From assembly GCF_000294655.1 (NCBI RefSeq), contig NZ_CAHP01000010.1, positions 45,518 through 103,650 of the forward strand: a stretch of DNA of 58,133 bases, read 5' to 3'. Under the pieces are notes generated by a model. It saw nothing but the letters and a program-made list of their open reading frames with translations. It made no database searches and was not told where the DNA came from. The translations under genes were made by a program, and so were the position numbers. Shown one piece after another: positions 15,448 to 20,272 of the stretch (its first letter is position 1; every line of letters begins with the position of its first letter). The DNA is from Magnetospirillum molischianum DSM 120 (GTDB lineage: Bacteria; Pseudomonadota; Alphaproteobacteria; Rhodospirillales; Magnetospirillaceae).

Positions 15448-17123
15448 TCGCCTCTCAATTCCAGTTCTTCCCATTACCGAGATCCCCGAACGTGTAGGAG
15501 ACCTGTCCGAACACCATGGTACGGTCAAAGACCTCGCGGATGGGAGAGGAGGGAATCCCGACGAATGGGAATTGCGTCGTTCCCTCGGACTGCATGCGCC
15601 AGCGACGCGTGCCGATTCCGATACTCATACGGTCGGTAACGAAATAGGACAGGGTCGCCTCAAGCTGATAGCCGCTACCTTCGGCATCTTCTCCCAAGGG
15701 ATTGATGTCCGGGCGCATCCAGTGATTGTCCTCGCTGCCGGTGGTGCTGAGCCACGGCAGCCATGCCGCTTCGGCAGACAATTTCAGCCGTTCCGCCAGC
15801 CAGACGTCGCCGGCCACGCCAAGTCGGGCGGAGTTCCACAAGAATCTGCGGCTGAGCATAAGCTGGTCTGGGCCGACTACGGGTGAGGGCGATCCGGGAG
15901 GCTCGCAGATGAACGGATTGGTGGCGATCTGGGTGCAACCGTAAGCGTTTTGCCGTTCGTCGTAATAGCTGTAGCCGACAAACGGTCCGGCCCGCCAGCC
16001 GCCGCTCATGAAGGCGTAGCCCACATCGATGGTCGCATAGAGGCTCTGGCTATTCTTACGGATATGGACAGTTTTGGAATAGGGGTCGGGAGGGAGGAAG
16101 AAATCCTCATCGTACATGTCTGCGCCATCGGCGAATGCAATGCCGCCGACAAACCCTTTCAAGAAGGCTCCGGAATGGTGGTCAATTCGACCAAATACTT
16201 CCGTCATCGTGCCTGTTCCAGGCCAGGTCAGGCGGGAATTCATCGCAGATTTATTGTATAGGTCGAACAGGTCGTAGCGGAAATTGCCGGTAGTCCAGCC
16301 CGCGCGCGTGCCAAATTCGATGGAAAAATCGCGGATTGGGGGAGACTCTTCGGCAACCGCCGGCGACGGGCCAAAATGGTAGTTTATTCCAAATTTCAGG
16401 GCATTGAAGGACTGACGGGCGGTCGCTCCGTAAGCCTTCTGAACAGGCAAATAGGAGCTATCCAGAGATTGTTTGCCGAATCGGTAATGGGTGAACTCGC
16501 TCTTCAGCGACAGGCCATCCCCCAGAGCTTGCTCAACACCAAGTCCGGCATTTCCGCCTAAAAGGTTCTGCGTCGACTCAATAGACGGACCAGGGACGTA
16601 GTAGTCCCCGGCGGAAATCGAGAGACTCTGGTGAGCGTAGCTTGGGCCACCTTTGACGAAAAGCAACGTGGACCCTTCGGCGTAACCGATCCGTGCGTCC
16701 AAGCTGGCGAGTGCATCGATCTCCGAGTGGCAGGTCCAGCCGAAGAAACCGCTGGGATTGCTACAAACGGCATTGCCGGTGAGGGTCGATGCATCGATTT
16801 CTCCCTCGACTCCAACCACCCAATGGCGTCCGACGGGCCAATTGTAGCCCAGAGTCAAGCCGCCCAGAAGACCCATCTGGCTGCCGCTGGCCGGGAACAG
16901 GGATTCGTTGGGGGCCGCGAGAATACCAGTCGGGTCCGACCAATCGGTAGCACCCCACGCCGTTCCGAAATTCAGGCCAGCATAGAAACCGTCCCAACTG
17001 GAGGCGGGAATCACGGCCATCGACTGATCGGCGGCGAAAGACTGGCTGGCCAATAACGCGCCAACGGCGGCTACGATAATACTCTTTCGCATACGCTTTC
17101 TCGATAGCCTCTCAGTTAGCTCA
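15448..17123. repeat. Tandem repeat unit A (outer-membrane gene plus flanks)
   Basis: This 1676-bp unit is repeated at an offset of exactly 1814 bp. It starts 7 bases beyond the stop codon of the outer-membrane gene and ends 31 bases upstream of its start codon. The two units differ by a few tens of bases, mostly in the second half of the gene. Confidence 0.93.
15455..17092 (-). CDS. Two-barrel outer-membrane protein with omptin-like protease domain, copy A
   Basis: The 545-residue protein has a signal peptide (1-20, ending SQSFA). The first barrel (about 33-240) starts WDGFYAGLNFGTAWG and ends with the typical final strand FGINYHF, like Omp25/OmpA-type 8-strand proteins. A ~15-residue linker leads to a second barrel (about 255-535). 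This carries D328-x-D330 in MYDEDF and D455-x-H457 in SEDNHWM. These match the D83/D85 and D210/H212 pairs of OmpT, and the 125-residue distance from second Asp to third Asp is the same as in OmpT. So it is probably a surface protease or lysis-type adhesin fused to a small porin-like barrel. Only 31 bp of native upstream DNA remains, so it may depend on read-through from copy B. Confidence 0.8.
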   Translation of the reverse strand: MRKSIIVAAVGALLASQSFAADQSMAVIPASSWDGFYAGLNFGTAWGATDWSDPTGILAAPNESLFPASGSQMGLLGGLTLGYNWPVGRHWVVGVEGEIDASTLTGNAVCSNPSGFFGWTCHSEIDALASLDARIGYAEGSTLLFVKGGPSYAHQSLSISAGDYYVPGPSIESTQNLLGGNAGLGVEQALGDGLSLKSEFTHYRFGKQSLDSSYLPVQKAYGATARQSFNALKFGINYHFGPSPAVAEESPPIRDFSIEFGTRAGWTTGNFRYDLFDLYNKSAMNSRLTWPGTGTMTEVFGRIDHHSGAFLKGFVGGIAFADGADMYDEDFFLPPDPYSKTVHIRKNSQSLYATIDVGYAFMSGGWRAGPFVGYSYYDERQNAYGCTQIATNPFICEPPGSPSPVVGPDQLMLSRRFLWNSARLGVAGDVWLAERLKLSAEAAWLPWLSTTGSEDNHWMRPDINPLGEDAEGSGYQLEATLSYFVTDRMSIGIGTRRWRMQSEGTTQFPFVGIPSSPIREVFDRTMVFGQVSYTFGDLGNGKNWN

Positions 17124-17124
17124 A

Positions 17125-17263
17125 TAAGATCAATCCCTGGGCAGCCCTGGCACCGTCAGTCGGACTTTACCTGGCTATCCAGATCGGCGACCTCAACTTT
17201 CCCAATTACCCGACCAGCGGGACTTGGTTTTTCAACCCGATGGCCTGGCAAATGATGTTCGTC
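17125..17263 (+). pseudogene. opgC fragment left between the two outer-membrane genes
   Basis: These 139 bp match 19603-19741 inside the intact opgC gene with three mismatches (at 17131, 17177 and 17197); two of the three would be silent. The fragment encodes the KINPWAALAPSVGLYL to AWQMMFV part of OpgC, has no start and cannot be functional. It is the remains of a larger duplication whose opgC 5' part has been deleted. Confidence 0.93.
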
Positions 17264-18937
17264 GCCTCTCAATTCCAGTTCTTCCCATTACCGAGATCCC
17301 CGAACGTGTAGGAGACCTGTCCGAACACCATGGTACGGTCAAAGACCTCGCGGATGGGAGAGGAGGGAATCCCGACGAATGGGAATTGCGTCGTTCCCTG
17401 GGACTGCATGCGCCAGCGACGCATGCCGATTCCGATACTCATACGGTCGGTAACGAAATAGGACAGGGTCGCCTCAAGCTGATAGCCGCTACCTTCGGCA
17501 TCTTCTCCCAAGGGGTTGATGTTTGGGCGCATCCAGTGATTGTCCTCGCTGCCGGTGGTGCTGAGCCACGGCAGCCATGCCGCTTCGGCAGACAATTTCA
17601 GCCGTTCCGCCAGCCAGACGTCGCCGGCCACGCCAAGTCGGGCGGAGTTCCACAAGAATCTGCGGCTGAGCATAAGCTGGTCTGGGCCGACTACGGGTGA
17701 GGGCGATCCGGGAGGCTCGCAGAAAAGCGGATTGGTGGCGATCTGGGTGCAACCGTAAGCGTTTTGCCGTTCGTCGTAATAGCTGTAGCCGACAAACGGT
17801 CCGGCCCGCCAGCCGCCGCTCATGAAGGCGTAGCCCACATCGATGGTCGCATAGATACTCTGGCTATTCTTACGGATCTGGACAGTTTTGGAATAGGGGT
17901 CAGAATAGGGTGGGAAATCTTCATCGTACATGTCTGCGCCATCGGCGAATGAAATGCCGCCGACAAACCCTTTCAAGAAGGCCCCGGAATGGTGGTCAAT
18001 TCGACCAAATACTTCCGTCATCGTGCCTGTTCCAGGCCAGGTCAGGCGGGAATTCATCGCAGATTTATTGTATAGGTCGAACAGGTCGTAGCGGAAATTG
18101 CCGGTAGTCCAGCCCGCGCGCGTGCCAAATTCGATGGAAAAATCGCGGATTGGGGGAGACTCTTCGGCAACCGCCGGCGACGGGCTAAAATGGTAGTTTA
18201 TTCCAAATTTCAGGGCATTGAAGGACTGACGGGCGGTCGCTCCGTAAGCCTTCTGAACAGGCAAATAGGAGCTATCCAGAGATTGTTTGCCGAATCGGTA
18301 ATGGGTGAACTCGCTCTTCAGCGACAGGCCATCCCCCAGAGCTTGCTCAACACCAAGTCCGGCATTTCCGCCTAAAAGGTTCTGCGTCGACTCAATAGAC
18401 GGACCAGGGACGTAGTAGTCCCCGGCGGAAATCGAGAGACTCTGGTGAGCGTAGCTTGGGCCACCTTTGACGAAAAGCAACGTGGACCCTTCGGCGTAAC
18501 CGATCCGTGCGTCCAAGCTGGCGAGTGCATCGATCTCCGAGTGGCAGGTCCAGCCGAAGAAACCGCTGGGATTGCTGCAAACGGCATTGCCGGTGAGGGT
18601 CGATGCATCGATTTCTCCCTCGACTCCAACCACCCAATGGCGTCCGACGGGCCAATTGTAGCCCAGAGTCAAGCCGCCCAGAAGACCCATCTGGCTGCCG
18701 CTGGCCGGGAACAGGGATTCGTTGGGGGCCGCGAGAATACCAGTCGGGTCCGACCAATCGGTAGCACCCCACGCCGTTCCGAAATTCAGGCCAGCATAGA
18801 AACCGTCCCAACTGGAGGCGGGAATCACGGCCATCGACTGATCGGCGGCGAAAGACTGGCTGGCCAATAACGCGCCAACGGCGGCTACGATAATACTCTT
18901 TCGCATACGCTTTCCCGATAGCCTCTCAGTTAGCTCA
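17262..18937. repeat. Tandem repeat unit B (outer-membrane gene plus flanks)
   Basis: This is the second 1676-bp unit, offset 1814 bp from unit A. It keeps its native upstream region towards opgC. Both junctions share only a few bases (TCG at the left edge, CTCA at the right), which suggests illegitimate recombination, not transposition; no insertion sequence is present. Confidence 0.93.
17269..18906 (-). CDS. Two-barrel outer-membrane protein with omptin-like protease domain, copy B
   Basis: This 545-residue paralogue of copy A keeps the same signal peptide, both barrels and the D328/D330 and D455/H457 pairs. Its first 240 residues are identical to copy A. All 13 substitutions lie at residues 241-503: G241S, A319S, a four-residue block 332-335 (FLPP to PPYS), H343Q, L351I, F394L, I395F, D462N, T495M and E503Q. 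The 332-335 block directly follows the first catalytic pair and residue 462 lies five after the catalytic histidine, so the changes cluster near the presumed surface cleft. It has the native promoter region and is divergent from opgC. Substrate is unknown. Confidence 0.8.
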   Translation of the reverse strand: MRKSIIVAAVGALLASQSFAADQSMAVIPASSWDGFYAGLNFGTAWGATDWSDPTGILAAPNESLFPASGSQMGLLGGLTLGYNWPVGRHWVVGVEGEIDASTLTGNAVCSNPSGFFGWTCHSEIDALASLDARIGYAEGSTLLFVKGGPSYAHQSLSISAGDYYVPGPSIESTQNLLGGNAGLGVEQALGDGLSLKSEFTHYRFGKQSLDSSYLPVQKAYGATARQSFNALKFGINYHFSPSPAVAEESPPIRDFSIEFGTRAGWTTGNFRYDLFDLYNKSAMNSRLTWPGTGTMTEVFGRIDHHSGAFLKGFVGGISFADGADMYDEDFPPYSDPYSKTVQIRKNSQSIYATIDVGYAFMSGGWRAGPFVGYSYYDERQNAYGCTQIATNPLFCEPPGSPSPVVGPDQLMLSRRFLWNSARLGVAGDVWLAERLKLSAEAAWLPWLSTTGSEDNHWMRPNINPLGEDAEGSGYQLEATLSYFVTDRMSIGIGMRRWRMQSQGTTQFPFVGIPSSPIREVFDRTMVFGQVSYTFGDLGNGKNWN

Positions 18938-18961: not shown

Positions 18962-18979
18962 ATACAATCAATATTGTAT
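18962..18979. promoter_or_regulatory. Inverted repeat in the outer-membrane gene/opgC divergent promoter region
   Basis: ATACAAT and ATTGTAT are separated by CAAT, a perfect 7-bp dyad. It lies between the start of copy B (18906) and opgC, in an AT-rich stretch suited to a promoter. It could be an operator for one or both genes; the protein that binds is unknown. Confidence 0.4.
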
Positions 18980-19123
18980 CAATATGTTAACTACGATGAA
19001 ACTCATCCAATTGCAACGATTGACCGCCTCAGAGGCATGGGGCGAAAAACTTGCCGAATCAAACCACGTTCCAATAAAATGGGGAGTAAATCCGCGACCA
19101 AGACCTCGCCCCGGATGCCGACC

Positions 19124-20272
19124 ATGGACAAGTCTCGCCGCGACCCTTTGATTGACGCCGTTCGTGGCCTAGCCCTGGTCATGATTTTCATCAATCACGT
19201 CCCAGGAAATCCGCTAGAAGAACTCACCTCGCGCAACTTCGGCCCGTCCGACGCCACCGAGCTGTTCGTTTTTCTTGCTGGTTATTCCGCTGCTATCGTC
19301 TATGGCCGTCGAATGGAGCGTGACGGGCTGGTTCGCACCAGTTTCCGGCTGTGGGGACGGGCGTTCAATCTCTATGTCCTCCACTTGTTCACCTTGCTGC
19401 TGGCCACGGCTATCGCCGCTACCGCCTCGCTGGTCACCGCCGATCCCCATCTGCTTGATTGGATCAATCTCGGCCCGATCTTCTTCGATCCAGTGCCGAC
19501 CCTGATCGGTGTGGTGACGCTCGGGCATCAGGCTGGTTATTTCAACATCCTGCCCCTCTATATCCTTCTTATGGCTGCCGCTTCGGTCATGCTGCCGCTG
19601 GTTAAGATTAATCCCTGGGCAGCCCTGGCACCGTCAGTCGGACTTTACCTGGCTGTCCAGATCGGCGACCTCAATTTTCCCAATTACCCGACCAGCGGGA
19701 CTTGGTTTTTCAACCCGATGGCCTGGCAAATGATGTTCGTCATCGGTCTGGTCTGCGGCAACCGAGCCCGAAACGGCCTGATCCCTGTACCCTATCATCC
19801 GTTCGTGGCGATGGCGGCCGGGCTGGTGATCGTGGTCGGACTGGGGATGAAACTGGCTGGATACTATCCATCGCCGGACGCCCTACCGCTGCCGTTCTTC
19901 ATGTTTGGCCAGGATAAGACGTTCATGACCGTGCCCCGCTTGGTCCACGCCCTCGCCCTGCTCTATCTGGGGGCACATTTCGGTGCCCGCGCCGCCCTGC
20001 GCTGGCTTGGCCCAATCGGACGGAGCCTTGAGGAGATGGGGCGGCACGGTCTCCTGATCTTTTGCACCGGGTCGGTGTTCGCCATCCTGGCCCAGCTGTG
20101 CCTGTTCGCGATCGACGCCGACCGGCTGACCGCCGGGGCGGTGGTTCTGGCCGGATTGGCTGGCCTGATGTTCTTGGCAAAGGGACGGTCATGGTATCTT
20201 GGAGTTTCTCGCGTGGAGCAACAACTCGGCTCATCGCCGCAGCCATCGGCCTTGCCTGCCAACTCGGTATAG
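19124..20272 (+). CDS. opgC: OpgC-family acyltransferase (glucan succinylation)
   Basis: The 382-residue integral membrane protein starts with the family block DPLIDAVRGLALVMIFINHV, followed by SDATELFVFLAGYSAA and about ten hydrophobic helices. OpgC proteins move succinyl groups onto osmoregulated periplasmic glucans at the inner membrane. The start is placed at the ATG ten codons before the conserved block; in-frame ATGs at 19079 and 19115 are alternatives and no ribosome site is decisive. A second copy of its middle section lies between the two upstream outer-membrane genes. The next gene overlaps its 3' end by 82 bp, suggesting shared function in glucan modification. Confidence 0.85.
   Translation: MDKSRRDPLIDAVRGLALVMIFINHVPGNPLEELTSRNFGPSDATELFVFLAGYSAAIVYGRRMERDGLVRTSFRLWGRAFNLYVLHLFTLLLATAIAATASLVTADPHLLDWINLGPIFFDPVPTLIGVVTLGHQAGYFNILPLYILLMAAASVMLPLVKINPWAALAPSVGLYLAVQIGDLNFPNYPTSGTWFFNPMAWQMMFVIGLVCGNRARNGLIPVPYHPFVAMAAGLVIVVGLGMKLAGYYPSPDALPLPFFMFGQDKTFMTVPRLVHALALLYLGAHFGARAALRWLGPIGRSLEEMGRHGLLIFCTGSVFAILAQLCLFAIDADRLTAGAVVLAGLAGLMFLAKGRSWYLGVSRVEQQLGSSPQPSALPANSV

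Follow-up and report, generated by a model that had tools for sequence, protein, structure and literature searches.

Substrates of the β-barrel assembly machinery (BAM) are usually described as one barrel that is recognised through a signal in its last strand. Here we analyse two neighbouring paralogous genes of Magnetospirillum molischianum DSM 120, each encoding a 545-residue chain in which a predicted OMP_b-brl barrel (B) is followed by a predicted omptin-like barrel (O), together with relatives in which up to four barrels appear to be joined. The genes lie in a 58,133-nucleotide stretch of contig NZ_CAHP01000010.1, called the window, whose coordinates are used throughout; L and G numbers are our own designations of loci and genomes.

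The closest described chains are those of Reddy & Saier 2016 (PMC4827864), the parts of which used here state that outer-membrane barrels are rarely fused. They include a 577-residue alphaproteobacterial protein (TC 1.B.72.2.3) with a BRP barrel and then a PomS/T domain of limited omptin similarity, a 1086-residue TPR-PomS/T protein (TC 1.B.72.2.4), MnoP, which combines a BRP barrel with an OprB-type barrel, and a three-barrel chain of the order BRP-AEP-BRP. The 577-residue protein resembles the window proteins in domain order and alphaproteobacterial origin, and because this BRP-PomS/T fusion was in print in 2016 the two-barrel finding is already known in kind. It also equals in length a Methylobacterium radiotolerans homologue of the window proteins (L007, 577 residues). 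Its account differs from ours in that neither catalytic residues nor three- and four-barrel omptin-like strings appear in the passages of PMC4827864 that discuss it. Like the window family, MnoP and the BRP-AEP-BRP chain combine several complete outer-membrane barrels in a single alphaproteobacterial polypeptide, but the partner barrel, as described there, comes from a transport family rather than being omptin-like.

According to the sections of PMC3048539 used here, the omptins conserve their catalytic residues, an acidic pocket and a lipopolysaccharide (LPS) site. The O barrel resembles omptins (OmpT, Pla; PF01278) in its ten predicted strands, in catalytic residues that fall in register and in its best structural match. 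It differs in its low identity to OmpT, in lying below Pfam detection in the window copies, in having lost most pocket and LPS-site residues, and in being joined to other barrels. In the results taken from PMC7617971, Escherichia coli OmpA, acting 1:1, up to doubles OmpT activity through a lower Michaelis constant; the B-O chain likewise sets a small barrel 1:1 with an omptin-type one, but what are two separate proteins there is one chain here. Three- and four-barrel omptin chains, and catalytic conservation in fusions, were not found among the open-licence PMC papers listed, which does not prove their absence; the barrel strings of the omptin-like family appear to be the new part of our finding.

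Two predicted barrels and the omptin kinship of the second

The architecture, family relation and catalytic-residue conservation described below come from sequence and structure prediction. Pfam scores of relatives, a profile comparison with OmpT and a structure model all agree with the original prediction that both window proteins carry two barrels in series, the second of them omptin-like. The whole-chain AlphaFold2 model, computed from the window protein plus 38 further rows (model numbering + 20 gives protein numbering), has a mean predicted local distance difference test score (pLDDT) of 79.6 and a predicted template modelling score (pTM) of 0.59. After merging of neighbouring DSSP elements it contains eight and then ten strands, and the single large barrel that had been named as the contrary outcome did not result.

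In gene 1, barrel B spans residues 35-240 (16373..16990, minus strand), within which the model places eight strands; the equivalent barrel of gene 2, also residues 35-240, lies at 18187..18804 (minus strand) by the 1814-bp offset between the genes. OMP_b-brl (PF13505) matches residues 11-240 with 46.5 bits in gene 1 and 45.4 bits in gene 2, against a cut-off of 28.7. The OmpA barrel has eight strands, and on the model the first barrel is predicted to be OmpA-sized rather than porin-sized, so that the earlier description of this domain as porin-like is not upheld. It ends in G-I-N-Y-H-F (residues 235-240; G-x-N-Y-x-F) with F240 as the terminal residue, and G235 and N237 are invariant in 39/39 rows of the structure alignment. 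In the wider family no strict terminal-strand pattern held up: the one tested matched 68/84 B barrels in B-O proteins, 23/48 in B-B-O-B proteins and few omptin ends (2/84 in B-O), so a GxNYxF-like end is claimed for the window proteins and the 39-row alignment only. The extracellular loops of barrel B are net negative in 28 of the 39 rows, a weak trend read without a control set.

The omptin-like barrel occupies residues 256-535 in both proteins (gene 1, 15488..16327; gene 2, 17302..18141 from the alignment and the same offset; both minus strand), with ten strands predicted in gene 1. The eight best Foldseek matches of the window model in the PDB are all Pla or OmpT, with TM-scores of 0.69-0.80 by target length. 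OmpT D83 and D85 align with D328-E329-D330 (16103..16111 in gene 1) and OmpT D210 and H212 with D455-N456-H457 (15722..15730), all four in register. A residue check of the gene 2 protein places D328/D330 at 17917..17925 and D455/H457 at 17536..17544, all on the minus strand, so that these residues and F240 stand in both copies where the original prediction had put them. In the model the D/D and D/H pairs lie at the ends of O-barrel strands 3 and 7, presumably on the extracellular side, provided that the chain is inserted from the periplasm.

The kinship of the window proteins with omptins emerged through relatives, a 61-row profile and structure, single-sequence searches having been negative. 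The Pfam Omptin cut-off (22.6 bits) is exceeded by 11 of the 26 distinct relatives scanned, the best being L023 (48.8 bits, profile positions 10-244 of 283); the proposed PF01278 search was positive for some relatives and negative for the window proteins themselves. A profile of 61 C-domains, selected from 69 by a match length above about 200 residues and including the window's two, aligned with K-12 OmpT locally over 177 columns at 18% identity (probability 96.3, E 1.8e-9) and globally with probability 97.8 and E 4.8e-12, the E values being those of one comparison; a control profile of the first barrel (N-domain) gave a probability of 0.3. The tetrad D,D,D,H is invariant in 61/61 of these C-domains, a distant ORF (open reading frame) without it, L064_1, having been removed by hand. 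Before length selection it was present in 61/69 matched ORFs, the other eight being short, split or distant. It is also complete in 9/9 rows of the first alignment and 39/39 rows of the structure alignment, both of which include the two window copies. The spacing of 125 residues between D330 and D455, which had been singled out earlier, does equal that of D85-D210 in K-12 OmpT but is not conserved among relatives (117-129 in the nine rows). Origin of the chain by barrel duplication within the gene was considered and set aside: the halves aligned in BLASTP with E 0.32, and when their profiles were compared just the final 69 columns could be aligned, with a probability of 78.

Several results weigh against reading the O barrel as an omptin-type protease. 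Pfam Omptin (PF01278) matches neither window protein nor anything else in their genome (0 matches), and 0/4 of the four-barrel proteins scanned exceed its cut-off. NCBIfam omptin models matched two relatives far below cut-off, and no PDB chain was found with phmmer and the window protein (E up to 10), nor with a profile built from nine rows (E up to 1). Many residues beyond the tetrad are replaced. We take OmpT E27 and D208 to form the acidic specificity or substrate pocket, and Y134, E136, R138, R175 and K226 to form the LPS-binding site. Among the 61 C-domains, the D208 column holds G in 51 and the E27 column, aligned only globally, holds K in 24 and E in 9; the E136 column holds Y in 41 and F in 9, the R175 column R in only 6 and the K226 column G in 47. 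At the S99 column 51 of the 61 have S, but the window copies carry H and Q there. No assay of any family member was found in the literature examined. On the LPS site, Y134 is kept in 53/61 and R138 is R in 20/61. From sequence, then, the O barrel is best described as omptin-related, with the catalytic set present and the acidic pocket and LPS site mostly lost; the original prediction of an omptin-like protease barrel is supported as regards kinship and catalytic residues, and its protease function is putative.

Predicted barrel strings in alphaproteobacteria

Domain profiles read 155 non-identical ORFs that contain the omptin-like domain as B-O (84), O alone (46), B-B-O-B (16), B-O-B (5), B-O-B-B (3) and O-B (1). 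Merging five cut copies of window genes leaves 150 distinct ORFs (81 B-O, 44 O alone, other layouts unchanged), in which the same profiles recognise three barrels in 5 and four in 19, namely 16 B-B-O-B and 3 B-O-B-B. Nearly all of these ORFs come from searches aimed at the omptin-like family, and the layout counts are not frequencies; the class of O alone takes in fragments, six distant matches, and 21 of 46 ORFs with at least 100 unrecognised residues in front. The tetrad is read in 142/155 ORFs (141/150), and the 13 without it comprise four cut window copies, three broken-gene pieces (L069, L056) and six distant matches (L062-L067). Five single-contig genomes (G865, G895, G904, G739 and G819) contain four-barrel ORFs, and in 4/4 four-barrel proteins scanned Pfam recognises three OMP_b-brl stretches. 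The model of a three-barrel protein (L032; pLDDT 74.9, pTM 0.60) contains 8+10+8 strands under the same merging, and its nine best PDB matches are again Pla and OmpT.

A tree was made of 94 B barrels, drawn from 36 of the B-O proteins, 8 of the 16 B-B-O-B proteins, all other strings and 14 free barrels; the search was short, with many weak forks and long branches. Barrels from like positions mostly cluster in it, 16 changes being needed for 11 labels against a shuffled mean of 54.6. Because B barrels group by position, the string layouts look inherited rather than accidental. In the C-domain tree the fused label, as first assigned, requires four changes, at least three of them by well-supported branches; but two members without a recognised first barrel (L022, L051) may be broken genes, and L060 was subsequently assigned to B-O.

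Several chains of unusual make-up were noted. The only reversed order found, with the omptin-like barrel first and OMP_b-brl second, is at L175:1908-3674. An ORF of 1109 residues (L149:155-3481) combines weak TPR matches with a C-terminal omptin-like barrel and resembles the TPR-PomS/T protein TC 1.B.72.2.4. An ORF of 1111 residues (G673:C1:7372799-7375702) has four OMP_b-brl matches and is perhaps a B-barrel string without an omptin. In L059, L184, L191, L200 and L148, some 235-245 residues (487 in L148) precede the recognised domains and are matched by none of the profiles used; they are perhaps other barrel types.

Counting the own genome each time, the window C-domain finds matches in 2/55 genomes of its family and 4/317 of its order, and the nine-row profile finds matches in 11/385 genomes across the class, six of which have only weak or partial ones; in the family of G673 the same profile matches 71/248 genomes. 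The copy in G673, L058, groups with Bradyrhizobium loci in the C-domain tree. The same genome holds a second B-O gene (L069:685-2379), which is split by an in-frame TGA and has its first catalytic D replaced by N; it is probably decaying, L058 being an intact copy elsewhere in the genome. In the part of PMC6515984 used here, Bradyrhizobium diazoefficiens bll1872 is listed in a table of microoxia-regulated genes as an omptin-family protease. Four plasmid homologues inspected are annotated just as "outer membrane beta-barrel protein", so that the omptin relation is easily missed.

The locus and its two gene copies

Gene 1 (15455..17092, minus strand) is open throughout and begins with a signal peptide judged by eye; gene 2 (17269..18906, minus strand), its paralogue, is likewise open throughout. 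The proteins are identical at 532/545 residues and the DNA is 98.6% identical over 1678 columns. Twelve of the 13 amino-acid differences fall in the omptin-like barrel and one in the linker, and four adjacent codons differ just past D328/D330 (codons 332-335; 16088-16099 and 17902-17913). Positive selection between the copies was considered and is not claimed: 13 codons are changed against 6 silent, and four of the changed ones are adjacent. Between the genes lies a 137-bp copy (17125..17261, plus strand; 97.8%) of 19603-19739, a segment within the adjacent opgC-like gene (18974-20272), and because this piece separates them the two genes did not arise by simple tandem duplication. Promoter-like sites are not clearly above shuffled sequence (3 against a mean of 1.8, standard deviation 1.1).

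A Cus-type efflux operon (OEP, CusB-like, AcrB-family) lies upstream in window coordinates; the opposite flank carries the opgC-like gene and, after it, a GDSL-type hydrolase. Relatives of the efflux pump at 87-90% identity are present in five further genomes of the genus. The fusion gene is found in its own genome only, of the 17 in the genus, and the opgC-like gene is also present in 1/17; the block with the fusion genes therefore looks like accessory DNA.

Proposed function and competing explanations

We propose, and hold it to be somewhat better than an even choice, that each protein is one chain with two separate barrels, a surface endopeptidase with the small barrel as a built-in partner. 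BAM would fold each chain into two separate outer-membrane barrels, in the order eight-stranded OmpA-like barrel, linker of ~15 residues and ten-stranded omptin-type barrel, and the O barrel would most likely act as a surface endopeptidase. As most pocket and LPS-site residues are replaced, activity and specificity are inferred rather than shown; active proteolysis is probable, and a specificity other than for dibasic sites is evenly balanced. Barrel B may keep the protease 1:1 with an OmpA-like scaffold and modulate it in the way that free OmpA acts on OmpT, a partner role drawn by analogy and judged less likely than not. As the LPS site is mostly lost, the built-in barrel may serve as activator instead, and the negative loop charge of barrel B fits, weakly, the OmpA effect on OmpT.

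The C-terminal barrel might instead be a PomS/T-type anion-selective channel of common ancestry with omptins that cleaves nothing, its four polar residues having another role, for instance to bind a ligand or metal at the channel mouth. The filing of the 577-residue fusion under PomS/T in the relevant part of PMC4827864 favours such a channel, as do the loss of most OmpT pocket and LPS residues and the Pfam Pom (PF17251) scores of two relatives: against a cut-off of 22.4 bits, L002 reaches 30.7 without an Omptin match and L009 reaches 23.1 while passing both cut-offs, the window proteins having no match. With D-x-D and D-x-H kept in 61/61 C-domains and omptins as the top PDB matches, we consider a channel unlikely. 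The chain could also be a precursor whose linker is cut by the omptin domain or another protease, the barrels then acting apart. Omptins are proteases, and only short gaps of varying length separate the B and O domain matches (5-48, median 20, at 108 B-to-O junctions), yet inherited three- and four-barrel layouts speak mildly against routine separation, and this explanation is improbable.

A single 18-stranded barrel can draw on the FadL-type barrels that Foldseek also lists over about 550-570 columns. Those alignments have TM-scores of only 0.19-0.31 and a root-mean-square deviation of 16-27 Å, however, whereas omptins span ~300 columns with TM-scores of 0.69-0.83 of the target (window and L032 models), and B and O are found apart, once swapped, and in strings, so one large barrel is very improbable. 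That gene calling or assembly merged two genes has no finding in its favour and is scarcely credible, given that both copies are open throughout, that the same two-barrel architecture recurs at 30-37% identity in several genera and that four-barrel ORFs stand in five single-contig genomes.

For the family as a whole, we see even prospects for the view that alphaproteobacteria carry inherited single-chain strings of two to four barrels around an omptin-type protease (B-O, O-B, B-O-B, B-B-O-B and B-O-B-B, beside stand-alone forms; four barrels would make 34 strands if each has 8 or 10), that BAM inserts the barrels in turn through internal and final terminal strands, and that the extra barrels take over the activating part of free OmpA and LPS or else arrange the protease within the membrane. 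The strings raise the question of how cells fold such chains, and proteins of up to four barrels, with some barrel ends inside the chain, would offer a natural way to test whether BAM operates from the C-terminus only or takes several barrels in turn. The B-O chain would amount to an OmpA-OmpT pair in covalent form, in which partner activation of a membrane protease could be tested by separating the barrels.

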